Source: Crambe crambe (taxonomy: Eukaryota > Porifera > Demospongiae > Poecilosclerida > Crambeidae). Taken from it: a DNA stretch of 64,000 nucleotides. Below the pieces are notes generated by a model. That model saw only the letters and a list, made by a program, of their open reading frames with translations, searched no databases and was not told the origin of the DNA. The stretch's first letter is position 1. Every line of letters starts with the position of its first letter. Location of the stretch: assembly GCA_963924555.1 (NCBI GenBank), contig OZ004595.1:1178001-1242000 (forward strand). Reading direction: 5' to 3'. Shown here in pieces: positions 6,196-64,000 of the stretch. Made by a program: the position numbers and the translations under genes.

Positions 6196-6636
6196 TGTTC
6201 ACCTCCTCCACCACCAAATCCACTGATCTAGCCTAGGCCTGGGAATGAGGCTAGCACTGATCCACCAGTTGATAGAAATGAACAATTTAGAAATAGCTAA
6301 CATAGCTACTAGCATACTACAATAACTTATACAACAGTTAAACAGAACGAATCACACAAAATACAGCATACTTTTGTAGCTTCTAGTCACTCAAGCCAAG
6401 TTCTATGACCTTTCATTCCTGCTGTGTGACTTATGCCCATGACCATCCTTACTAGCTCAATTGCAACACCTCAGTACACACATGAGTTGCTGCAGAGTGA
6501 AGCCAGCTCTCTCTCTCTCTCTGGAAAAATTTTTATACATTATTGTGACACATACTGCGAAATCCAAATGCACTTCCAGTACCAAATCCTCCTCCACCAA
6601 CAGTACCACTAAATGTCCGCTTCATCATCAATATCG
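6196..6636 (-). pseudogene. Scattered copies of the Gly/FG-repeat exon
   Basis: Two short stretches upstream of the Gly-rich gene repeat its exon-1 sequence on the same strand. 6196-6230 encodes GFGGGGG and 6556-6636 encodes a fragment reading GGGGFGTGSAFGF. The second starts with two in-frame Met codons (6636, 6633) and ends at a gtatgt donor-like site; the first is flanked by ag and gtgaac. They could be relics of a tandem duplication of exon 1 or alternative 5' exons. Simple GGTGGA codon repetition alone does not explain the shared AGTACCAAATCC-type segments. Confidence 0.45.
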
Positions 6637-6722
6637 ATTTTAAACAGAAGTGACTCTTGTGTTACACTCCATGAAACATTTGTCGCTATTCTAGTTACTA
6701 CATACAATCAATAACAAAAATC

Positions 6723-6728
6723 TTTATT
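6723..6728 (-). terminator. Poly(A) signal AATAAA of BDP1
   Basis: AATAAA on the minus strand lies 8 bp after the proposed BDP1 stop codon at 6736, which fits the compact gene ends in this window and supports the last-exon model. Confidence 0.55.
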
Positions 6729-6735
6729 GGTGCCT

Positions 6736-9455
6736 TCACATGGATTGTAATAACTGTGCTTTGAAAGTTTTTCTCTTGACAGTGAATTGATAGTTATGGT
6801 CATAAATGATTGGCTCTGTATTATGGCTGGCTAGAGATATACAAGTCAAGTTCTCTGAATTGTCATCTGGTTTTCTATAATGAAGATCAAAAGATGGTAG
6901 ACAACATAGATTAGTATTGCTATACAACTTACTTAGAGCTTGAGTGATCAACTGTGGACGATTTTTCTCCTCTTTTTTGAATTTATTCTGGGGGAGAGGG
7001 ACAGATACAATTTCCTAAGCTTTTAATGTACATTACCCAAGACATGACAAAGCTATCTCACACATCACTATAAAAAAAGTATTACTGGGCCCCAGGCACT
7101 CAAAAGGTATGCTGGGAGATGACCAACATTACAACTGCCTATAGTGGAATAAAATGCTTGGCTATAATGTCATTGTATGGTACAATGAAGTCTTGCCAAC
7201 CTTCAGTTCTTTCCGGGATCTTTTTGGCAGCAACAAGGTCATCATTGTGAAATCGGTTCCAACCTGACTGAGTGCTTTGAAGAAAGTGCTGGTTTCTGGA
7301 TTATGTAATGTAAAACATCATAACACATACATAAAGTTGTGTCGTCAAAAAAAAATGGTGCTTGTCATCTATCTCACCTTCTTTGGTCCACTTAGTGATC
7401 TTGGATCTGTTTCTATATGATGCTGATGTTGTGTGGCCAGCTCCTTCTATGATCTCTCTATGCATTCATCATCACAATGATCAGTTAACATTAGCCAATC
7501 AAGTACATAATGACAGGGACATACCCCATATCCCCTGGGAGCTCACTTTGGGCAGTCGTTTCCATGAGCATACTGAAAGAAGTACAGTGTGATGATAGGA
7601 CTGCACTAATCCCTCACACAGTCCACACTCACCTCTCCTCATCTATGATGATTTTCCCATCTTTCCCAATTCTAAGTTGCGGGACGATTCTCCCTTCCTC
7701 TTGCTCTGGGTCATCTCTCTTGTCCTCGTCTGCCACGGCCTTTTCTCTTGAGGCCTGAATGTCGGGAGGGACAGGGGTACTGGACTTGGAAGCTGTTTGG
7801 GATGTACTTGCAGAGCTTGCTTCTTTCTGCTTCCTCTTAGTGTCTTCCACTTTAGAACTGCAGTTTATGGAAGGACTTTTTACTGTGTATGTATGTACAT
7901 TAATGGAAGTTCTCATAAACAGGACGACTTATCCTCCAAAGTGAGCATTCTCTCTTTGGAGGTCTATTAATGCTACATAGATATTACATAGTGAAACGTG
8001 CTTGCTGTGACCACCTATGGGACAGAAACGAGTGGCCTTAATAGGGGAGGTGGTCTCTTTAGGGAGGTCAAAATAGTTGCTGTTGGGTGACCTTAATAGA
8101 CAGGTGGTCTCATTATAGGGTTGTCTCATTATAGGGTGGTCTGTTTCACTGTACAGGTCAATATTATCTTCTGATGGAAAACTGATGAGTCAGCATACAA
8201 GGACATAGATTATACTTATACTGTACCTCATGGGGTTGGCGGTGGGGTTGTAGTAGATTAATTCCTGCATCGTCATGGTGGATCTGTTGGGAGCTTCACG
8301 AACACTAACTGTCGATGTGCGTGACTTCTTCGGACTTGGAGACAAGTCTTCAACTCCTTCTCCACTTGTGTTTGGAGATGGATTACATGAAGTTTTTCTT
8401 TTCTGCACAAAAAAAAAAACTTGCTCAGGCTTACATTTTATGCCCCATTGGTTACCCTTCACCACTAAAAATACTACTTGACAACAGAGAGGAGAGCAAA
8501 TTCTTTAGTGCCCATTCATTTCTATTATTTGTTCACACTTTACCTTTCTCTTTGGTGTGGATAATTTTTCTGACACTCCCTCTCCACTCACGTCACGGTC
8601 AGAAGAGACTGGACCAACGCCTCCTCTGGTTCTCCTTTTGCCTGCTGGAGATTTCTCTCCAGATGAGAATGTTACATCATCTCCATTACCTGTAGTCTCA
8701 ACCAAACTCGTATCTGCTTCCACACCAGCTTCTTCACAGTGGTGGGCGTCCTCATTTTGAGTACTGATAACTGAAAATTGGTCATTGGGACCTTCTGTTC
8801 TTGTTTCGTGTATGTGGTCCTTGACAGAATCTACTTCTTTACAAATATGCTCACTATTTCGAGTGCTTTCTTTATCACATTCCTGGACACTTGTCTCACT
8901 CTCACACTCAGCAAGTTGACCTTTCCTTTGAGAAGCTGTTTTCTTCGATGATCTGGAAGTAACCACTTTAGGGGGCACCTTCTTCCTCAGTTTGGTGCCA
9001 CTAACACTAGGAGTCACTATGGGTTTCCTAGCAAGGGAAGATACAATACTGGCTTGCACTTCACCTTCTCCAATCCCTGCTAATGATGAGCCATCACAGG
9101 GTTCTTGTTGGCTTTGGGATGGACTGATCTCAGTTGGTTTTTGCTCTTGACCAGAAGGCGGTCCTTTGGCATTTGTAGATTGCATGTCCAATCCATCTAA
9201 ACATGCATAAGTTATTATAACTGGTCTTGTGAGTTAATTATTGATCTAATTTAGCCCTAGCAAGTATTGTCCACTCTCTTACTACTAACCTTCTTTATCA
9301 CTTGATACTTTTCTTCCACCTTTGTCCTCTTCACACTGGACTACCCCACTGGATCGTCGTCCAGATTCCATGCCCCCATGGCTCCCTGCACGGGCCTCTC
9401 CCCCTTTCCCTTCACCCCGAGATCCACCAAGGTTCGGCTTGAATTTAGTTTTCAT
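6736..9455 (-). CDS. BDP1: Transcription factor TFIIIB component B'' (BDP1)
   Basis: Nine exons: 9455-9290, 9196-8544, 8402-8227, 7857-7633, 7572-7525, 7457-7378, 7295-7201, 6987-6933, 6830-6736; 530 residues, all phases consistent. BDP1 joins TBP and BRF1 in TFIIIB, which opens promoters for RNA polymerase III. The N-terminus (KTKFKPNLG) resembles the family's start. Residues 30-330 are Ser/Glu/Lys-rich and disordered, followed by the family motifs ELIYYNPTANPM, then VPQLRIGKDGKIIIDEE (about 390-406), and the extended SANT/Myb domain (RNRSKITKWTKE, FFKALSQVGTDFTMMTLL, RSRKELKNKFKKEEKN; about 440-495). It lacks the long C-terminal repeats of vertebrate BDP1. The last exon is the weakest: reading past another acceptor would stop after three residues. 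The start ATG sits three bases after an ag, so an upstream noncoding exon is possible. Confidence 0.88.
7987..8157. repeat. Short TIR element in BDP1 intron 3
   Basis: Imperfect terminal inverted repeats: acatagtgaaac at the left and gtttcactgtaca at the right. The inside is a run of related blocks such as gtggtctcattatagggt and gtggtctctttaggg. The same blocks recur at 10320-10370 and, inverted, at 34253-34372. Non-coding; looks like a non-autonomous DNA element of the CACTGTA-ended type. Confidence 0.5.
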
Positions 9456-10128
9456 GCTACAGAAAAGCTGCAGAGTAATCGAAGGAAATCCCTACAACAC
9501 CATCTGACGATAGCTATAAACTCACTTCTTCTAGCTGCCTGGAGTCTGCAAGAGTCTACCACCTATCACGCATCTTATACCTCTATCACATACTCGGACG
9601 GAGAGATCTGGTGCAATCGTGAATAGTCGTGGTGCAAGCAACACTCCAATAAATGCTCACCAACAACTATGAATTTTAAATAGTGCCCACCAAAACTTTC
9701 AAAATGATGCCCACCTAACTTTCTGATCGGGCAGACATTTTTAATACCTAGCCTTAAGGAAGGAAGAACGATGTAGTAGGCACCTATCAATTTCCTGTCC
9801 TCCTAGCAGAGAATTGAATCTTTATTACACCTCTACTTCAGAGAGAAATATTAAAAGAATGCCACTGCCATAAGCTAGCCAGAAACCCTCACACTCGTGT
9901 CTGGAGTAATAATGTAACATCTGACCTCTGCAGGTTATGAAAACACAGGCTTCAGTGTAGCTGTACAAATTCTCAACAAAGGAGCAACAATGAATGGCTG
10001 TACCTATATGCCATTTCCCCTATTATATGGTCAGCATGGTACATTAAGACATTGTTAACTGCATATTGCTCATGTATTCTCCTTCAAGGTGCCTTAAATT
10101 TGGCTGTATATGCACAAGTGTAATAGTA
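9456..10128. other. Spacer between BDP1 and CWF19L1
   Basis: 673 bp between two minus-strand genes. It must hold the BDP1 promoter and the CWF19L1 3' end. No conserved element, open frame or repeat was recognised. Confidence 0.5.
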
Positions 10129-44994: not shown

Positions 44995-45165
44995 GCCCCG
45001 TTTACATGAGGGCTCTAACCCGGATTCGACCCGGATTCGCTTCAAGTGTGAACGGTGCCAACCTGGATTCCAATCCGGGTAGCCCAACCCACATCAATTA
45101 GGTGGATTGGAATCCGGATTGAATCTCAACCCGGGTTGGGCGTACATGTAAACACGGCTATACAA
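44995..45165. repeat. TIR element (agccccgtttacatg ends)
   Basis: Left end agccccgtttacatg and right end catgtaaacacggct are inverted repeats with two mismatches, flanked on both sides by ata/ta, which may be a TA target duplication. The inside repeats variants of acccggattcgacccgg and gattggaatccggatt, themselves inverted. About 170 bp, non-coding. Confidence 0.65.
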
Positions 45166-45167
45166 GA

Positions 45168-45488
45168 TTGATTAAATATTATCGAGGAGTAGTAGTTAGT
45201 AGTTACGATGCCTTTATTTGGTGTGTTGTTTTAGTTTTGGCTAACGCTTCTGTTCCTTTGAGTTGTAATTTTGTGGGGGAATTTCTTTCTTTATTGGCAG
45301 CTCTTGAATGTAGCTTTTTAGTTGGTATTTTGGCATCTTCGGGGGTAGTATTATCGACAGGTTATTCAATTTATATGTTTTGGGGGAGTTTCAAAGTATT
45401 TAGGGATTTTACCCGGCGGGAATTTTATAGTTTACTACCTCTAATAGTATTAATAGATTTGTTGGGAATAAGTCCATGTTTTAATTAA
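45168..45488 (+). pseudogene. nad4: nad4 3' fragment of mitochondrial origin
   Basis: An open frame of 106 residues matches the C-terminal third of NADH dehydrogenase subunit 4: IKYYRG, LANASVPLSCNFVGEFLSLL (nearly invariant in animal mitochondria), GVVLSTGYSIYMF, then DFTRREFYSLLPLIVLIDLL and a natural-looking stop. The N-terminal two thirds are missing. It has no start, targeting peptide or splice site, so it cannot work in the nucleus. The good state of the frame suggests fairly recent transfer. Confidence 0.88.
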
Positions 45489-45646
45489 AGATTCTATTAT
45501 TCTTGTTTAATATTTAATTGAGGTAAAGAAAGAATAATTGGGTGTGTTAATAGGCATTATTGTTTAGGGTGGTAAGGAGAAAGTTGGGGTGAAAGAAAGG
45601 GGGTTGACGTATGAGCATTGTTGTTATATGATGGTAATTGTTAGTT

Positions 45647-45714
45647 GAAGACTTAATATGGTAGAGCAGAGGATTTTTAGTCCTTAGGTTTTTGGTTCAA
45701 GTCCAGAGGTTTTG
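45647..45714 (+). tRNA. trnK: Mitochondrial trnK(ttt) copy, decayed
   Basis: Anticodon arm gagga-tttttag-tcctt gives anticodon TTT. The T-arm tttgg-ttcaagt-ccaga pairs fully, and the acceptor stem gaagact/ggttttg pairs at six of seven positions with wobble. The D-arm is shortened. It lies within the NUMT and is not expected to function. Confidence 0.6.
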
Positions 45715-46027
45715 GAGCTTGGTGATTAAGGGTTTCATAGAATAAGAGGTTTGAACTGTTTTTGGTAGAGAGAGTTTAGTATGAATTGTTGGATTTTAAG
45801 ATTAAGTTAGTTGATAAGATAAATAGGTTTTTAAAGAGGTTGGATATAGAATTTTTACTAGAGAGATGGTATAAGGTTAGTGCGATTGTTTAGGAACTTT
45901 TGATTGAAAAAGTTTAGGTGTTGGTGGGAGTCGGTTTTTAAAAGTATTATGTAATAAATTATTTGTTTTTTAGTGATTAGAGTGCATATTTTTTAAATGA
46001 TAGGTTATATAGAGGGCGTGTAACAGG

Positions 46028-46085
46028 GGTATGTTAATATGGTTTTCAGGGCTGAGATTTGCAGGTTCGAGTCCTGTCCATGCTA
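46028..46085 (+). tRNA. Mitochondrial tRNA remnant, identity unclear
   Basis: Acceptor stem ggtatgt/ccatgct and T-arm gcagg-ttcgagt-cctgt are recognisable, but only about 26 nt lie between them, so the D-arm and anticodon arm are partly deleted and the anticodon cannot be read. Confidence 0.4.
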
Positions 46086-46165
46086 GGACAGTAAGAATTG
46101 TGAGAAGAGTTAGTTGTATATATATTCCTATGTCTGGCATGAGTTGGTTTGATAATTTGGGGTAT

Positions 46166-46240
46166 TATCTTTGTGGTGGAATTGGTAGATGCATCAGACT
46201 TAAAATTTGGTTTTTATGGGTTCAAGTCCCATTAGGGATA
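46166..46240 (+). tRNA. trnL: Mitochondrial trnL(taa) copy, cloverleaf intact
   Basis: Acceptor stem tatcttt/agggata pairs over all seven positions (two G-T). D-arm ggtggaattggtagatgca is followed by anticodon loop ac-ttaaaat with anticodon TAA. The T-arm atggg-ttcaagt-cccat is perfect. Part of the NUMT; the structure is intact, although a nuclear RNA polymerase III A/B-box promoter would be needed for expression. Confidence 0.78.
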
Positions 46241-46241
46241 T

Positions 46242-54495: not shown

Positions 54496-57400
54496 ATGTC
54501 GACTCTAAGTAAGTGCACTACTGTTTGCTCCCAAAGCAGAGCTGAGCACTTGGCAATGACCCTCTTTTGAGAGGGAAAAAGAAGCTCTTATATAAGTGTC
54601 TATAACAGCCGCAAAATTGGACTTGAGCGAAGTCAGCAAAGTTATCGAGGAGATAACTACCAAATTTGAAGCTTAAGTGTACAAACCAAAGTCCAACTTG
54701 CTACAAATTGAAGGAGAAAAGTTTGAATTGGCTTCAGATAAGAAGGGTTTTCGTCTAGAATTCCGAACTTTTTCACCCAGGGAGGTGTAAAGCTATTCTC
54801 AGTTTGCCCGCCCGCCGGTTTAGCCAGCAACTGTCGCAGAGAAAGCCAGCTAGGTATGTTGTAGCTTGCTACAAAGTAGCTTGCTAGCCTTTATATAGTG
54901 TTCGTTATGCTTTATAATGTTCACCGAGCTTTCACTACGTGTATATTGGTGTAGTAAAGCTTTCATGTTCAAAGACACGGTGCTCTGTGAACAGCCAGCT
55001 AGCTAGACCTAGCTTAGAATAGCCAGGTAGAACATTCATTGCAATCATGAATATCCCATTATTTACTGTTCATGATTATCATGGAGAAAGTGTTAAAATA
55101 GATGCTGAAAAGTGTATGGTCTGTAATAATTCATGTGTTATTACTAGAACTAAGTACTTCATTGTGCTCTAAATAGAGTTATAGGATTTGGCTACATATC
55201 ATCCATTGATCAATACGTATTCATAGACATCAAATTTTGTATCAGTGACTAGTTTCAAGTATGATTTTAACGCCTTTTAAATAACGATCTCTGAGGTTTT
55301 CTACAAAATTATGTTGGTGGGTGGAGTATGCATGTTCTAAATAACCGATTTAATTTCCTTCATTTATTATTCTTGTTTATTTTTACCACTCATTTATGTA
55401 CATCACTTAACAGTAGTCACTTTAGAAGATGAGATGTTGATCATGGTACTGTGACTATTTTTAACTTCTACATATCTGAGCCCAATGGAGAGCCCAATGG
55501 ATTTAAGCTTTTATTATCGTGGTCGTCAGGTCATCATTTATCACATATAGCAGAGCCCATCAGTATGGACTCCCTGAAATGAAATGAAAAAAACAAAACA
55601 AGAAGCAACAAAAAAAAACAACAAAAAGCAACATGCTTTTCTGATTCACCCCTGCAACGTGCTTTTTCCCCCTTGTCTCGAAAAGTTCACCACTTCCAGA
55701 TGTGTGGAATTTTTATTCTTGAGCTCTGCTATTGTTGGGTGCAGAGGGCAAATAAAGGGGGGTGCCCCTGTACCTTCCGAATGAATGTCGTGTTGATTAG
55801 AATATCAACCACACTTCCACTCCCACTAGGCCCCAGCTATAGACATGTGGGGCTGTGGTTTTATTTGCTGGACATAAGGGGTCAGCAATCATATAGGTCA
55901 ATCTTCCAATATGCTTCCTATTCAGAGTGTTTAGTGACATGCCTTGTGACAAAGGTGCACAGTAATTGCCTTAGTGTAGTAATTTTCTTGTTACTACTGA
56001 TTATCTTGTTTGTTTATATTTTTTCCTCTCCTTTTTTCTATAGTTAAACCATCAAGACATAAAGATGTCTTAGATCGGGTTTAATTACACAGTCTGTCTT
56101 TCTTTTTCTCCAGCAATGTCTGAGCTTGAATTGACTGAAGACAATAGCACGTTAACAACGCAAGATTCTTCAGTTACTGAAATTGCCGAGAAGGAAGCAA
56201 TTTTTGACACCTCGCCTCAACATCAAAGCAATCCAAGAGCTACTTCCAGTGAAGATGTAAAATTGCCACTTCTGCCTGACCGGGAACAAGAAGAAGAGAA
56301 GTCAGCAGAAGGAATTTCTAGTGATGCTGATATTCTTCTACTTGAAAGGACAAATCAATTACCAACATCTGCAGGTCAACCAGGAGGAACTGTTATCCAA
56401 AATGAAAACTCCATTAGATTGAATAAACCTGAAGGAGATGACTCACCGAGCGATTTGAGTCATAGCGAAAGTATAGGTGGAGAGACATCTATCTCCAAGA
56501 CCAGTGCAGATCAAACTGATTGTGTCCCAGATCCAACTGGTTCTGTTCAAGAGCCATCTTCTCTTCCTACTGCTGAAGATTCTCCTTCTGTTGCACGTCC
56601 AACATCGTCAGCCGAAAGACTAGATAGTGATGGAAAATCTCCATCACCGTTAGATTCTTTAACAGGTCATGCAGTGGGCAGGGACTTGGAATCAGATCCT
56701 AATTTGGCAACGAGTGCCGTTGAGAATTTGGAACCAGAACCGGATGTGGCTTTGGAAGCGAATTCAAAGGCTTTATCTAGAGTAGCCTCCGAGAGTGATC
56801 AACTATCATCGGATGCTGTTTCCAGTAAAGTATCACCAGGTCCTGGTACAGGTATCACTTCTGATAATTCACCAACTTCAGAAGTTTCTAAAAAACCCGA
56901 CATTAATGATGTGCCCATCTCGTTGGCCTCTGATGTACCTACTCCCATCTCTACCGCTCATGATAGTTCACCTCCAGCTCTCAGGGTTGTCCCCTCTTCT
57001 CACAGTGCCGAAGCTAATGCTGATCAAACTGTATCTACCTCAGACAGTAGTGATAAAACTGATTTACCATCTGGTGATGGCACAGTAATGGACACATCAG
57101 GTGAAGTAGTTACTGATACAGCAGATGGTGCAGATTGTAGTGTGGAAAAGGACATTGGAAATGAGACGTTGCAAAAATCTGGCGAAGAAGATGAGAAAAG
57201 TGTTGGATCGACACATGATGATAGTGAATTTGGCACTCCTAGTCAGACACTTCTCACTTCTGAAGTGACGAGTTCCAATTTGGAATCCACTCGTGAGCCC
57301 ACAGCATTGGAGGATGCACCTCAACCTCAAATGAGGTCCATGGAAGGAGAAGATTTCTCTCCATCGAAGGAAGAGAAGGAGGAATCTTTTCAGCATGAGA

Positions 57401-60400
57401 CGAGTGAAGGAGTAGAGGCTATGAAAACATCTTCACCTGTGAAGAGTTCGTCTGTAGAACCCTCTGAAAGTGATGTGGGTTTATCTGCAACACTTGACGA
57501 GACGAGTACGGTTGACCCATCTGAAACTGATATGGGTGTGTCGGGTGTTGAGAAGAGTCCTAGTCCCTCTGGAAGTAATGCAGCCAAGTCTCTTATGGAG
57601 GTCAGCACTGATCCTTCTGAAACCAGTAAGGGAGTGTCTTCTGTGGAGACTTCAAAATCCTGTGTGAGCGTGTCTGCCATGGATGGCAGTGAAATGGGTG
57701 TGTCCACTTTGGAGAAGACTTCTGATAGTGAAATGGGCATGTCTGCCGTTGAAGAGGGTGAATCTGCTGCCTCTAATAGTAAAGTGTGTGTGTCTACATC
57801 TGATGTTGAAAAGGTTTCCAGTCCCTCTGAAGATAGTGTGGGTGTGTCTTCAGCAAACTCTGACCCCTCCGGTGTATCTTCAGTGAACTCTGACCCCTCT
57901 GAAAGGAAAGTGGCCCTTCCTGAAAGTAGTGTTGGATCATCAACCTCAGAGAATCAACACACGGAACCAAAGACAGATACTGTGAAGTTGGCAACCAGTG
58001 CACCTCAATCACCAGTGGGTGTATCTGTCGGGATATCTGTTAAAGACCCCCCAGCACAGGCCAGAATTCGTTCCGTTGTCATTAGCAACTTGACACTGAC
58101 CCCTGGAGTCAAAATAGGCAAGGATGTTTGTCCAATTCCTCTCCCAATTTCTTCTTCCTCCATCACCACCACTTTGTCTTCAAGCCCTGCCCACTCTCTA
58201 TCAACCTCCACCTCTTCCTTTATGAGTTCGTCCCCTCGTATATTGAGTAGTGCCAAAGCCACTACATCCTCTACTCCAAATTCCTCTCAGACTGCTTCTG
58301 TGCTTACCACGGCCTACACTTCCCTAGCAATGCCGATTTTCACTGGTGTGGCTCCTACAGTCCTCACGGCTGCCACTCCAGTCATTGCTACCACCACAAC
58401 TCATACAGTCCCACGACAATCTTCTGGGAAAAAACCAAGTCTCTCTGCTGGTTTATCTCCTACTCTGTCTTCAAATTTAGCAGCTCTTTTTCCTACATTA
58501 TCTACCAAGTTTGGCAGTGGAGTTAGTATTTCACTCCCCTTAAATCCTGAAACATCTCGTTTGACAGCGAGCACTCTCGTGTCTTCAGCTTCAAAGTCTG
58601 TTCGGAAAGAGGACATTTTGACAAAAAAGATAACAGTTACTTCAGGAAGTTTGGCAGATACTCAACCTGTTGTGTTGGTAGCTGGAACTGCGAGCCAGTC
58701 AACGAAATCAAGCAGTGGTTTAACCTCTGGTTCCGTTGTCCAATCAAATCCATCCATCCCTGTCGTGACCCATGTGCCGGTATTAAAGGGAATGATGAAA
58801 GGGGCTGCCCTCCCTCGTGGGCAGGAACGCAGAATAGCTGGCATGCCAGCTGCCAAGCTGAAAGTGGGGCAGGTAGAGATGCTGCACACTGCGAGCGAAA
58901 TCCAGCAAGTCCCCCAGAAGGTACTGGGTGATGCAAAAGGCCACACTATATCTCTGGACCTATCCCACTTCAAGATGCCACAAGTTCTAGGTGTTCAGAC
59001 TGTCCCACCTTCCCAGAAGTTTAAGCTCTTGAAGGGTCCTGATGGAAAGTTATTGAAGGAGGAGACAGAGGAGGCAATACCAGTACTGAAGCAGATGAAT
59101 ACAGCAGTTTCAGGGCAAGGTATGTATTGTGTGTGTGTGTATGTCTACTTCCGCCTTATATCCCTAAGATTTGATTCCTTTTGTTCCATACAATGACAAT
59201 ATTTCCGATCACAGATGTCAAGTCTAGCCAAGAACAGCAGCAGTTGAAATTGACACCTCATCCTGTCGCTAGAAGAATCTGGATGTCCTCATGCAGACCC
59301 CTTGATCCGGTATGTCATATGATTATCACATGACATGACCACTCCCTTTACATGTTATGCTTTATCTCTAGGCATCTCTGGAAAGAATTGGAAATGACGC
59401 GAAGGGGAACGTGTATTGGTATGATGGAGGAAAGAACATGTTTCAGTCCCCTCCTGCCTCTGACCCAGCTTACAAGCCAAGGTCAGTCCACTTTTCTTGC
59501 TGAAATTACCACAATAATTATCTAATTAAGCCATATTTTTCTAATGAGCTTATAATCTAATTAAACATTTTGATTCTGTGTGGGATTGCCACACATGTGC
59601 ATGGGAGCAGCAAATGGGAGAGAAAACCTTCCATCAAAACTAAATTACAATTTTCATAAAGACCAATATTAGAGTGATAAAAATAGAATAAGTTGCATTC
59701 AGTTCCCTCTTAAAAACATTCAGTTCCCTCTTAAGTAGGTAGATGAGAGGGGCTTCTCTTAATGGTGGTGTATAGTATCAATGTGTAGTTTTTATCCTGT
59801 GCTTATGTCTCTCTAGTGAAACTGAGCTCCAGCTCTCGTGCAAGTCTATGGTTCAGTGGACTGCCAAACTGAAGTAAGTGATGAGCTTCTTCAAAAGAAT
59901 GGGTGTTTATTTATTTTCAATTGCTTGTTTGTTTATTTATCTGTTTATTTGTTTGTTTATAGGGAACTGAGGAACAGTACTGCTGAAGAGGACATCAAAT
60001 TGGCCCAGACCATAAAAGATCAATTTCTGAACCGAGTCAGGATCTCGACACAGGTTAGTTCATAGTAGCCTGAGATAATTGTGGGGGCTAAGTATCAGAT
60101 AGTCAAAATAGAATACCAAGAATAAGCCATACATACTTTAGAATAGGAGGAATACAGTGGAAACATTCAAGATTGTGACTTTCTGAAAAGCAAGAGGGTA
60201 CCCTTTTAAAATTAGTACTCATCAAATTGTTCGTCTTTTCCTCCCCCCCCCCCCCCCCCCCCCCCTTGATATAGCGCAAGTCTCGAGATGTCTCCATGTT
60301 CCAGAAGTTCCAAGCTGTCCACAATTACCCCTTGACCAGTCAAGCGGGAAACGCTTTAGCATCCTCGTCCAACCAAATCAAAATCATCACGTCCCAACCG

Positions 60401-63400
60401 TCAGGCGACACCAGTAACACCTCCTCGTCCTCAGTCTTACAATCTTCCTTCCCTCAAGGATCAATTCTGGTCGTTCCTCATCCGACTAGCCCTTTTCAGG
60501 CAGTCTTGCCTATTTTCGCCAACACATCCGTTATCATCCCCCCGGGAGGAAATGTGTCCTCTTCATCTTCTAGCTCCCCTGCTTCTTCTTCAGGGAGTGT
60601 GTCTACCATCACCCAACAAGCAGCTGTAGCAGTCCCGGCCCAGCAAGCCATCACCATTGATGGCAGGTTGTTAGGGATGGGGGCTTCTGGGTCTGCCGAG
60701 GGAACACAAATGTTGCAGCTGGTCCAGCAGGCAATGGTCAGTGCTGGCATTACTACTCCCACTGTACTGCCATCCAAAGATAGTACTCGACGTTCTAGCA
60801 AACAAGATGGCGCTGATAAAGCTGGCATGCCAAACGCAAACCTCACACAGATGATAGATGGCAGCATGCTACAGCAAGCCGGTCTTAAAGAGTACTATCA
60901 GAGATATATGGCCATGGGTGCTCTTTCAGCTGGTACTGCCCCAATCTACACCATGAAAGTAGAAGATCCGGTCCAGTTAGTCAAAGTGAACTTTGAATCA
61001 AAGTCGATTGAGTTTGGTGGGGAAGTCCCTATCAAGAAGATTGATATCGAGAGTCTCTCTGAAGAAAAATCCAAGCAATTAAAGGAGGAGTTGAAGGAAA
61101 CTGAGATACCAGAGAAACTCAAAGTGGAGATGGAGAAACAGAATGTGAGCAAAGGAGATGAGAAGACGGATGGTAATGTGAGTGTACAGGAAGAGGTGGA
61201 GGTGGGTGGAGATGCAGGGAGAAATGCCGATACTTCTGGTGGTTTCCATGGTCATTCCTCTGCTGATCTAATGTCTGCCAAACTTCTCCTCTCTCTGACG
61301 GAAAACAGCAGTAATAATTGGTCAGTTTCCCCAAAGAAGAACAGCTCTTTCCTTTCAATCACTTCTCCGAGCAGCAGTGGTGGTCCTCACACGCCATCAA
61401 GTGGCCGTAAACGGAAGCAGAAACCAATCGCTAGTGCCAAACCTTCAAGCACGCCGGAAAAGAGTGGCAGGAAACTCAAAGACGAAACCACCCCTTCTGG
61501 TGGTAAGAGTAGAAGAGGTAGGAAAGCACGAAAGGAAGACAGTGATGGGGAGGGGGGAAGGGACGAGTCCTCCACTAGTACCTCCAAAAATTTCACTCCA
61601 GAAGAGCTGCTTGAGATCCTGAATATCCCTCCTTCCACTTCTGGTAGGCCTGGTGGAGGCGTGTCCAATAAAGGTCCTGCTAAATCTCGTGCTAAGTCCT
61701 CGAAGGAGGCTATGGATTCACTAGTATCAGCCTCCAGGGCATCTGATAAAATGGAACAACTGAAGGCTTCAAGAGGTCCCAAGCCAGTGAAAGAGTATGT
61801 GATTGAGACAGACTCGGATTCCAATAGCAGCTCATCAAGTTCCAGTTCCTCCCGCTTTACTCCCGACAGTGGCAGCTCAAGTGATAGCTCCAGCGATAGT
61901 AGCAGTAACGATGATGATTCAAGCGAATCCAAGTCCAAAACTCCCATCAAGAAAGCTTCGGTGCCTCTCAGTGGTTCTTCAAGGGGGCGTGGTCGGGGTA
62001 GAGGGAAAGGGCGTGTTGCTGATAGCCGTTATTCCAGTTCTGATGACAGTAGCAGTTCTGATGAAGAGAACGAGGAGGGGAAGCAAGGGAAGGGCATGGC
62101 ATCACAACAACAGAGCGGAGGAACCAAGAGGAGAGGGAGGGGGAGGGGTATGGGACATATCGTTAGCATTCCAACCAGATTATTGAAGAATAAGATGAAG
62201 CGTGGAAAGAAATTGAAAAAACAGGAAGTGAATGTAAGTATTAACTTTAATAGGATATAGTGCATGTTTCATTGGGTAAAAAACAAACAAGCCCTGCATA
62301 ACTGTGCACTTATTGAACTACAAATTGAATTTTTAGTTGTGTTTATCATAATATCAACAGTGCTCACACTAATAACCAGTCACCTGACATTATCTCACAA
62401 GGAAGCCAGTTTTTGACAAGGAACTGTAGATGTACCAGTTAATTCTTCTTGCTTGCTTTTGCTAAATACGGTGTCAGCAAAGATGATAATGGCTTGTTAA
62501 GTGAACTTTTATCCTTTCACTCTATAGGCTGAAGGTGATCAAGATAAAGATGCTGCTATAGCACGTAAATTAAATGAATTCGCTCCAGACCTCCCAGTGG
62601 ATCTGGCTTCCTTCTATGCCAGCAAGGGTGGAGTTGATCTGGGCACGCTCAGCGAACTAACAAAAAGTGTGGGTGTGTCTGATGACAACATGGAGAATTC
62701 TCGTTCCAAGAGAACATGTGTGCGTGTGCGCGAGGAAATTTCAAAGCTGGAGGAGATTTTGAAAGATGATTCAGTCGACACAAAGGCTTCAACTTCGAAA
62801 TCAAGGGGTGGTGGGCGTGGTAGAGGGCGTGGCTCCACCACACGTACATCCCTGGAAGCAGCTAACCAGTTAGGTGAGATGGGAGCCGATGAGCTAGGGG
62901 GAGTGGCAGTCGTCCCTGCGGCAAAGAAGTACAAGAAACCAGCTTACAGTCAGTTTACACACAAGCGAAGGAAGAGGAAACGAAAACCTCCAGAAGAAGG
63001 TAAGAGGATTAGATGACTTATTTGTTTGTTTTGTTTACTTGTTTGTTTTGTTTACTTGTTTGTTTATTCATTCAATATTTAGAGCCTTTGTGGCAGCCAG
63101 CCAGGAAACAGGCCCCTGGTGAGATCCGGAAAACTGTGTACATTTTCTCGACAAATTGGGCCAATGAGGCAGCCAAAGCAGTGATGGCTGGAAAGTACAA
63201 CACTATCATTCAGTTCCACCAAAACCAGCCCAAAGGACCCGGTTTTCACCGTCATCCTCCCTCCAAGGAGACTGAAGACAAGGATCTGGGAGAAGAGTCT
63301 CACACTCCGGACGGAGAGGGGAAGGAGGAAGAGGAAGAGGAAAAAGAAACAACCAAGTTGAGGAGTCTTCCATCGAGAGGGCAGAAAAGAGGATCATCTG

Positions 63401-64000
63401 GTCGAGCCAGTCTGAGTGCTACCGATAACCCGTCTCCAGTTGTTAAGAAACGGAGGAGCAGCACCCAACGCAAGTCTCCTCCTAAGGCACAGTCTCCGCC
63501 TCCTTTCCTTCGATCCAGTCGAAGATTGCGTCGGCAGAAAAACCCCTCTCCTGTCCCACCCCCAACTCCCCCTATGGAAGAGGAAGAAGGGGAGGAAGAA
63601 AAAGTGGAAGAGACTCGGTCCCCGACTCCTCCCCCTGTGGCGCAACCTTCCAGTGGATCCAGGGGGAGAGTGACCCGTGCTTCTCGACGTCTTGCTAGAA
63701 TCCAGCAGCGGAACAGCACCTCCCATGAACAAAATGTTTCCAGCGAAAGAAAAAATTCTATCGAAGAAGACTTGTCAGATTTACACGTAACTCCCAAAAG
63801 GAGTAAGAATGAAGAGAGTAAGAAGGAATCGAGGGAGGAAGATGATAAAAAAGAAGATGCTGATAGTATTTCTAAATCGCAGTCAAGTCCAGCAGAGTCT
63901 CCACACATTGATCCCAGTCAGTTGTCTGTACCACCTCCAGCTTTAGCGGACGAAGATAATTACACCATCTGTCATGGTACTCCTCAAGGTCGCAGCCCTA
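54496..64000 (+). CDS. BCL9/Legless-like Wnt co-activator, long Ser-rich protein, partial
   Basis: Nine exons in phase: 54496-54508, 56114-59119, 59215-59309, 59372-59481, 59817-59873, 59963-60053, 60275-62233, 62528-62999, 63083 to the right edge; 2240 residues so far. Exon 1 codes only MSTL plus one base; ATG 56116, two bases into exon 2, could be the real start. Residues 1-1000 are acidic Ser/Thr/Pro-rich with SETSxGVSSVE-type degenerate repeats. At 1010-1120 is a compact, unassigned segment (GNVYWYDGGKNMFQS, ELRNSTAEEDIKLAQTIKDQF). Ser-rich, GRGRGKG and acidic regions follow. At about 1951-1985 is KTVYIFSTNWANEAAKAV then MAGKYNTIIQFHQNQ, matching BCL9 homology domain 1 (VYVFSTEMANKAAEAVLKG), which binds the Pygopus PHD finger. 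The beta-catenin-binding HD2 is not seen before the edge. Divergent from vinculin. Confidence 0.78.
54509..56113 (+). other. Intron 1 of the BCL9-like gene
   Basis: 1.6 kb. A stretch at about 54620-54850 is less AT-rich than its surroundings and ends at a gtatgt donor-like site (54854), so it may be an alternative non-coding first exon. A frame at 55048 (MNIPLFTVHDYHGESVKID...) is 40 residues and has no partner. Nothing else recognised. Confidence 0.4.
60242..60265 (+). repeat. Poly-C tract before exon 7 acceptor
   Basis: About 23 C (after ct) followed by ttgatatag and exon 7 of the BCL9-like gene at 60275. The C run is part of this intron's polypyrimidine tract. Confidence 0.9.

Follow-up and report, generated by a model that had tools for sequence, protein, structure and literature searches.

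BCL9, B9L/BCL9-2, and Legless are adaptors of the Wnt enhanceosome, and the C-terminus of BCL9/Legless binds Groucho/TLE. The contacts between homology domain 1 (HD1) and the PHD finger of Pygopus (Pygo) are set out in a passage of PMC2726290, wherein T182, A185, N186, A189, and I200 of HD1 are invariant contacts to the Pygo PHD and V201 is semiconserved; M374, T375, A378, and L382 of the PHD are the side-chain partners of HD1, A388 and W390 are further contacts, and S387, V389, and G391 are backbone partners. The hot regions for BCL9 on beta-catenin, as given in an excerpt of PMC9698307, are D162/E163/D164 and a pocket of L159, L160, V167, A171, and M174, and the hallmark of HD3, an invariant Trp with a downstream Phe/Tyr doublet, is stated in a section of PMC5352222 to be found in all orthologues. 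With respect to early-branching animals, individual statements in the literature place Pygo in sponges (PMC3851687), describe enhanceosome components as conserved in placozoa (PMC4571689), and list Pygopus in a ctenophore (PMC2959043). No sponge BCL9 relative was reported among the literature matches listed, a search from which subscription papers, supplements, and preprints were mostly excluded, such that a relative may be in print; likewise, a literature search for BCL9 together with Amphimedon found no paper, and the words Pygo, BCL9, and Legless are absent from the main text of three sponge papers (PMC5684314, PMC5797367, and PMC10280926).

The locus described herein lies in a stretch of 64,000 nucleotides of Crambe crambe DNA (hereafter the window) and is likely to encode a very large BCL9/Legless relative with an HD1 and with Pygo as its partner, the classical contact to beta-catenin being unproven or absent. 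The HD1 segment, VYIFSTNWANEAAKAVMAGKYNTIIQFHQN, is encoded at 63136-63225 of the plus strand, where the sequence-only reading had put it, and corresponds to residues V1948-N1977 of the spliced model. This predicted model, which was built from splice signals and open frames and starts at the ATG at 56116, comprises 2,760 residues in eight coding exons that contain no internal stop, the phases of the seven introns agreeing throughout. Coding exon 1, counted from the first ATG (56116-59119, plus strand, as are all the others), has 1001 full codons and is Ser-rich; it is followed by coding exons 2 (59215-59309), 3 (59372-59481, containing LERIGNDAKGNVYWYDGGKNMF), 4 (59817-59873), 5 (59963-60053), 6 (60275-62233; 653 residues, Ser-rich, with RGRGRG runs and without a family match), and 7 (62528-62999, charged), the last of which carries near its end KRRKRKRK, a basic and, by eye, nuclear-localisation-like stretch. 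The acceptor of coding exon 6 is directly preceded by a run of 23 C (60243-60265). An intron of 83 bases (63000-63082, GTAAGA...TTTAG, phase 1), with normal splice signals and its TAG acceptor at 63080-63082, leads into the last coding exon, which begins at 63083 with EPLWQPARKQAPGEIRKTVYIFSTNWANEAAKAVMAGKYNTIIQFHQNQPKGPGF (the first E straddling the intron), continues to the end of the window at 64000, and runs beyond it to a TGA at base 1,243,577 of the C18 contig (window coordinate 65577); in full, it supplies residues 1930-2760, across which the frame is uninterrupted. The HD1 exon had been numbered 9 in the sequence-only reading and is coding exon 8 here, while an acceptor at 56110-56113, just before the ATG exon, suggests one more 5' exon upstream. 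More than 1900 residues had been claimed to precede HD1, and 1,947 do so in the spliced model.

That the host is a sponge, previously presumed, is very likely in view of silicatein-like exons with a catalytic Ser in the same genome. Silicatein is a cathepsin L-like protein with Ser in place of the catalytic Cys and marks demosponges. Three tandem copies on contig C15 contain pieces that match a silicatein alpha sequence at 63-78%; the exon bearing the active-site motif CGASYAF has Ser at the catalytic position in both of the two copies read, and in the PDB it matches silicatein alpha best (6zq3, E 3.4e-14), with cathepsins behind. The three copies occupy C15:871803-883000 at a spacing of about 5 kb, with pieces on the other strand in between. 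Elsewhere in the window, the region 45123-46241 holds what we take to be the C-terminal part of a nad4-like reading frame, followed by tRNA-Lys(ttt), predicted with a mitochondrial setting, and tRNA-Leu(taa); the whole resembles mitochondrial DNA that was inserted into the nuclear contig.

The identity of HD1 was assessed by phmmer searches of the PDB (177,635 distinct sequences) with queries of 46 and 55 residues and with the whole 830-residue exon. The 46-residue query found BCL9 first (2vpb, E 9.4e-07), followed by further BCL9 sequences (E 9.9e-07 and 4.8e-06), Legless (3zpv, E 3.2e-05), and two PYGO2-B9L fusions (2xb1, E 1.7e-04, and another at E 4.6e-04), the first match outside HD1 being a lectin-like fold protein at E 0.69. 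The same six sequences led the 55-residue search at slightly weaker E values and were still in front when the whole exon was used (E 2.1e-04 for 2vpb to 0.029, with 2xb1 at 0.025). Local alignment to human HD1 scored 94, a value reached by none of 500 block-shuffled copies of the protein (mean 28, maximum 41). The assignment to HD1 thus stands, as does the continuity of the match, which is ungapped over about 30 residues (about 33 had been claimed). Identity over 28 positions amounts to 16/28 with human BCL9, 12/28 with fly Legless, and 13/28 with B9L, compared with 16/28 between human and fly. All five invariant contacts (T182, A185, N186, A189, and I200) are identical in the sponge segment, and V201 is replaced by Ile; its strand, helix, and return segment are assigned by homology with BCL9. 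A single-sequence AlphaFold2 model of the HD1 exon segment is all helix at low confidence (mean pLDDT 61, pTM 0.30), and this predicted fold lends no support to a BCL9-like shape. No second HD1 was found in the 143 Mb genome, in which the segment as a sequence query, one that a diverged copy may escape, returns only itself. Pfam gave nothing above cut-off on the last exon, and two unrelated DUF models overlap the HD1 segment below it (E 0.053 and 0.18). Since PF11502, the 39-position Pfam model that bears the name BCL9, represents the HD2 segment, the missing Pfam BCL9 match does not refute HD1.

Outside HD1, no similarity to BCL9 was seen, in agreement with the sequence-only reading. The residues P, S, T, G, Q, and N make up 46-55% of the downstream flank of HD1 and 33-48% of the upstream flank, with few hydrophobics, and the C-terminal part is long and of low complexity. 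The flanks had been called Pro/Ser-rich and disordered, a description that holds for their disorder-like composition but not for the exon just upstream of HD1, which is charged rather than Pro/Ser-rich. The remainder of the protein has no convincing match in Pfam, NCBIfam, or the PDB, the NCBIfam search, made on three exons, having returned none. By eye, LERIGNDAKGNVYWYDGGKNMF of coding exon 3 was considered as a WSD/WHIM or MBD motif and rejected, as neither Pfam nor the PDB supported it.

An HD2 helix had been proposed as something to look for past 64000; with the exon extended to its stop, no recognisable HD2 is present. PF11502 matched neither the last exon nor the other exons scanned. HD2 chains are part of the searched PDB library, and no match to them was obtained with the last exon or with residues 1120-1945 at E values up to 10. 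Human HD2 as a protein query found no match in the genome, a search that had no positive control. Genome-wide, PF11502 gave a single match to profile positions 13-25 (E 7.3, C15:5387507-5387545, in the frame ATIRDMQIMLFF), which was taken as chance, given its E value and its position on a contig other than that of the HD1 gene; among 14 control genomes, none was matched in one such search and one bacterium in the other, so that this search also lacks a positive control. Ungapped HD2 scores in the protein are at shuffle level (the 32-residue query was equalled by 101 of 200 shuffles and the 20-residue core by 186 of 200), and the best gapped local score, 26, was reached by 450 of 500. By eye only, VREEISKLEEILKD (residues 1839-1852) and RRLARIQQRN (2131-2140) show a slight HD2 pattern. 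As for HD3, the full model of 2,760 residues was scanned for a Phe/Tyr doublet in the 13 positions downstream of each Trp, and none is present. A human HD3 sequence aligned to the model with a score of 33, which 38 of 500 shuffles also attained, and the aligned part does not include the Trp; judged by these shuffles, the score is weak, yet not flat chance. With no beta-catenin-binding or ChiLS-binding segment recognised in the protein, the enhanceosome adaptor role suggested by the sequence-only reading gained no backing; nor did its suggestion of an ancient, as opposed to a derived, build, the comparison covering a single sponge. Divergence beyond the reach of the tests used could hide HD2 and HD3, or the two may be sited in another gene.

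One clear Pygo PHD is present in the genome, at C15:232897-233073, and is 54% identical to that of human PYGO1 (31/56). As a query, it finds nine Pygo-bearing PDB sequences (E 3.2e-21 to 1.1e-19), which are also those found with the human PYGO1 PHD, and other PHD fingers follow only from E 3.5e-04. Functional positions are identical to human in 16 of the 20 compared, the K4-methyl cage (Y341, V350, D352, A356, and W366) is kept, and six of the nine HD1-facing positions are unchanged (M374, A378, L382, S387, A388, and W390); the link to Pygopus postulated earlier is therefore plausible, inasmuch as the genome appears to supply a partner with most of the matching surface. The other three HD1-facing positions are changed (T375 to S, V389 to E, and G391 to V), and L358, which in the human protein sits beside R2 of histone H3, is Tyr. 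All four substitutions are located at HD1 or histone surfaces and count against the model of HD1-Pygo pairing. A passage of PMC2726290 notes a comparable Tyr in RAG2, where it contacts methylated R2.

At the predicted 5' end of the sponge Pygo, the first exon is apparently very short (MSEAD) and is followed by the PHD exon. Translation of 10 kb upstream of the PHD exon in all six frames shows a single NPF, inside a 13-codon stretch; the sponge Pygo may thus do without an NPF motif, or the motif could be further off or split by an intron. A minus-strand gene at about 6500-9700 of the fetched C15 piece (L012), which is presumably UBR5-like, lies apparently head to head with Pygo, its start being close to the presumed Pygo first exon. 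Six other PHD-like matches in the genome sit in open frames that by eye resemble parts of mobile elements. One of the six, a Pygo-like PHD of 42% identity, is located on the minus strand at C21:2704677-2704847, near the start of a 377-codon, mobile-element-like frame.

The beta-catenin gene was located at C9:5480285-5481225 as five matched pieces at one locus. D162/E163/D164 read S/M/D in the sponge, such that one of the three acidic residues is kept, and the pocket residues L159, L160, V167, A171, and M174 read L, L, I, A, and L, which preserves a hydrophobic pocket; L156, L159, and L178 are also kept. The loss of two of the three acidic residues fits a missing or changed HD2 and is no proof of it. 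Given the kept hydrophobic half of the groove, an HD2-like ligand could exist, and the pocket may equally have been kept for reasons other than BCL9. Among other enhanceosome parts, an LDB1 query recovered one 41-residue piece (41%, E 2.7e-04), that is, an LDB1-like exon in the genome. Neither the Pfam models SSDP, LIM_bind, and TCF CTNNB1_binding nor a query with the SSBP2 N-terminus matched the genome, which leaves absence unproven for exon-split genes searched without a positive control.

Besides the reading of the gene as a BCL9/Legless relative that pairs with Pygo, two rivals and two narrower versions of it were weighed. Chance similarity to HD1 is hardly credible: the motif is short, but the E value of 9.4e-07, the six leading PDB matches that are all HD1, and the failure of any of 500 shuffles to reach the score all speak against it, and the control stretches that fit a 10-residue HD1 pattern in bacterial and archaeal genomes (50) or a 9-residue pattern in viral contigs (35) include no relative by tblastn. 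It is very unlikely, too, that the exon is a decayed or captured one retaining the likeness of HD1 without its function; such an origin would suit a protein whose remainder has no convincing Pfam, NCBIfam, or PDB match, yet the invariant contact residues are retained, the frame is open over residues 1930-2760, phases are consistent over all seven introns, and a Pygo partner is present in the genome.

The two narrower versions concern beta-catenin. The gene might be a BCL9/Legless orthologue that serves as the usual adaptor from Pygo to beta-catenin, its HD2 helix having diverged beyond recognition, a view to which we give somewhat less than an even chance. The genome does hold a beta-catenin in which L156, L159, and L178 are unchanged and the hydrophobic pocket is retained, and VREEISKLEEILKD and RRLARIQQRN could be read by eye as a trace of the HD2 pattern; however, HD2 similarity is at shuffle level, PF11502 is absent from the last exon and has but one unlinked match in the genome, only one acidic-knob residue of three is kept, and, as HD1 is readily seen, HD2 would need to be under far lower conservation. 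Possible but doubtful is an HD1-only partner of Pygo that is uncoupled from beta-catenin, with the PHD-HD1 pair used for general chromatin reading. The negative HD2 and HD3 searches and the lone NPF in the 10 kb upstream of the PHD exon, where a UBR5-like gene apparently stands head to head, favour such an arrangement, but a single genome is poor proof of absence, the Pygo 5' end is a prediction that leaves room for a more distant or intron-split NPF, and the LDB1-like exon is present. In its strictest form, namely a stand-alone chromatin-reading pair of Pygo PHD and HD1 that is unwired from both beta-catenin and LDB-SSDP, the proposal rests on the unrecognised HD2 and HD3, the weakened acidic knob, and the apparent lack of NPF, and we consider it rather unlikely. 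Because the tests for HD2 and HD3 were negative, the gene should not be labelled a full BCL9 orthologue; their absence weakens the statement that the protein is BCL9, not the statement that it works like BCL9 as a partner of Pygo.

On the preferred reading, that of a very large BCL9/Legless relative paired with Pygo, the gene product would be mostly disordered and probably nuclear. Sponge HD1 probably binds Pygo; by analogy with BCL9-Pygo structures, a strand and a helix of HD1 would pack against the rear of the Pygo PHD and, once docked, would support the grip of the PHD on the methylated H3 tail. The protein would then resemble BCL9 in function, serving both as a scaffold and as the partner of a chromatin reader. 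Because HD2 and HD3 (the holder of LDB-SSDP) are unrecognisable, the link to beta-catenin would be diverged, indirect, or absent and, if it exists at all, would depend on a helix that has diverged strongly or on a different partner.

An HD1 in a demosponge would date the PHD-HD1 pair to the common ancestor of sponges and the remaining animals or earlier, provided that no transfer took place. With HD2 and HD3 unrecognised, it becomes testable whether stepwise assembly produced the adaptor or trimming reduced it in the lineage of this sponge. Should the stand-alone pair prove true, the part of the Wnt enhanceosome that reads histones could exist apart from the beta-catenin adaptor function and might predate it.

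In comparison with known systems, the sponge protein differs from BCL9 in that its HD1 starts at residue 1948 of the model rather than at V177 as in human BCL9, and from BCL9/Legless in general in that it has no recognised HD2 or HD3, the likeness being confined to HD1. Within these bounds, it aligns without gaps to the HD1 of BCL9, B9L/BCL9-2, and Legless (PDB 2vpb, 2vp7, 2vpe, 3zpv, 2xb1, and 4up0) and shares with BCL9/Legless the five invariant Pygo contacts as well as low-complexity flanks and a low-complexity C-terminal part. The Pygopus PHD of the sponge departs from that of human PYGO1 in the Tyr at L358, in T375S, V389E, and G391V, and in that no NPF-bearing exon was seen nearby, but it is identical to it at 31 of 56 positions and keeps the residues of the cage.
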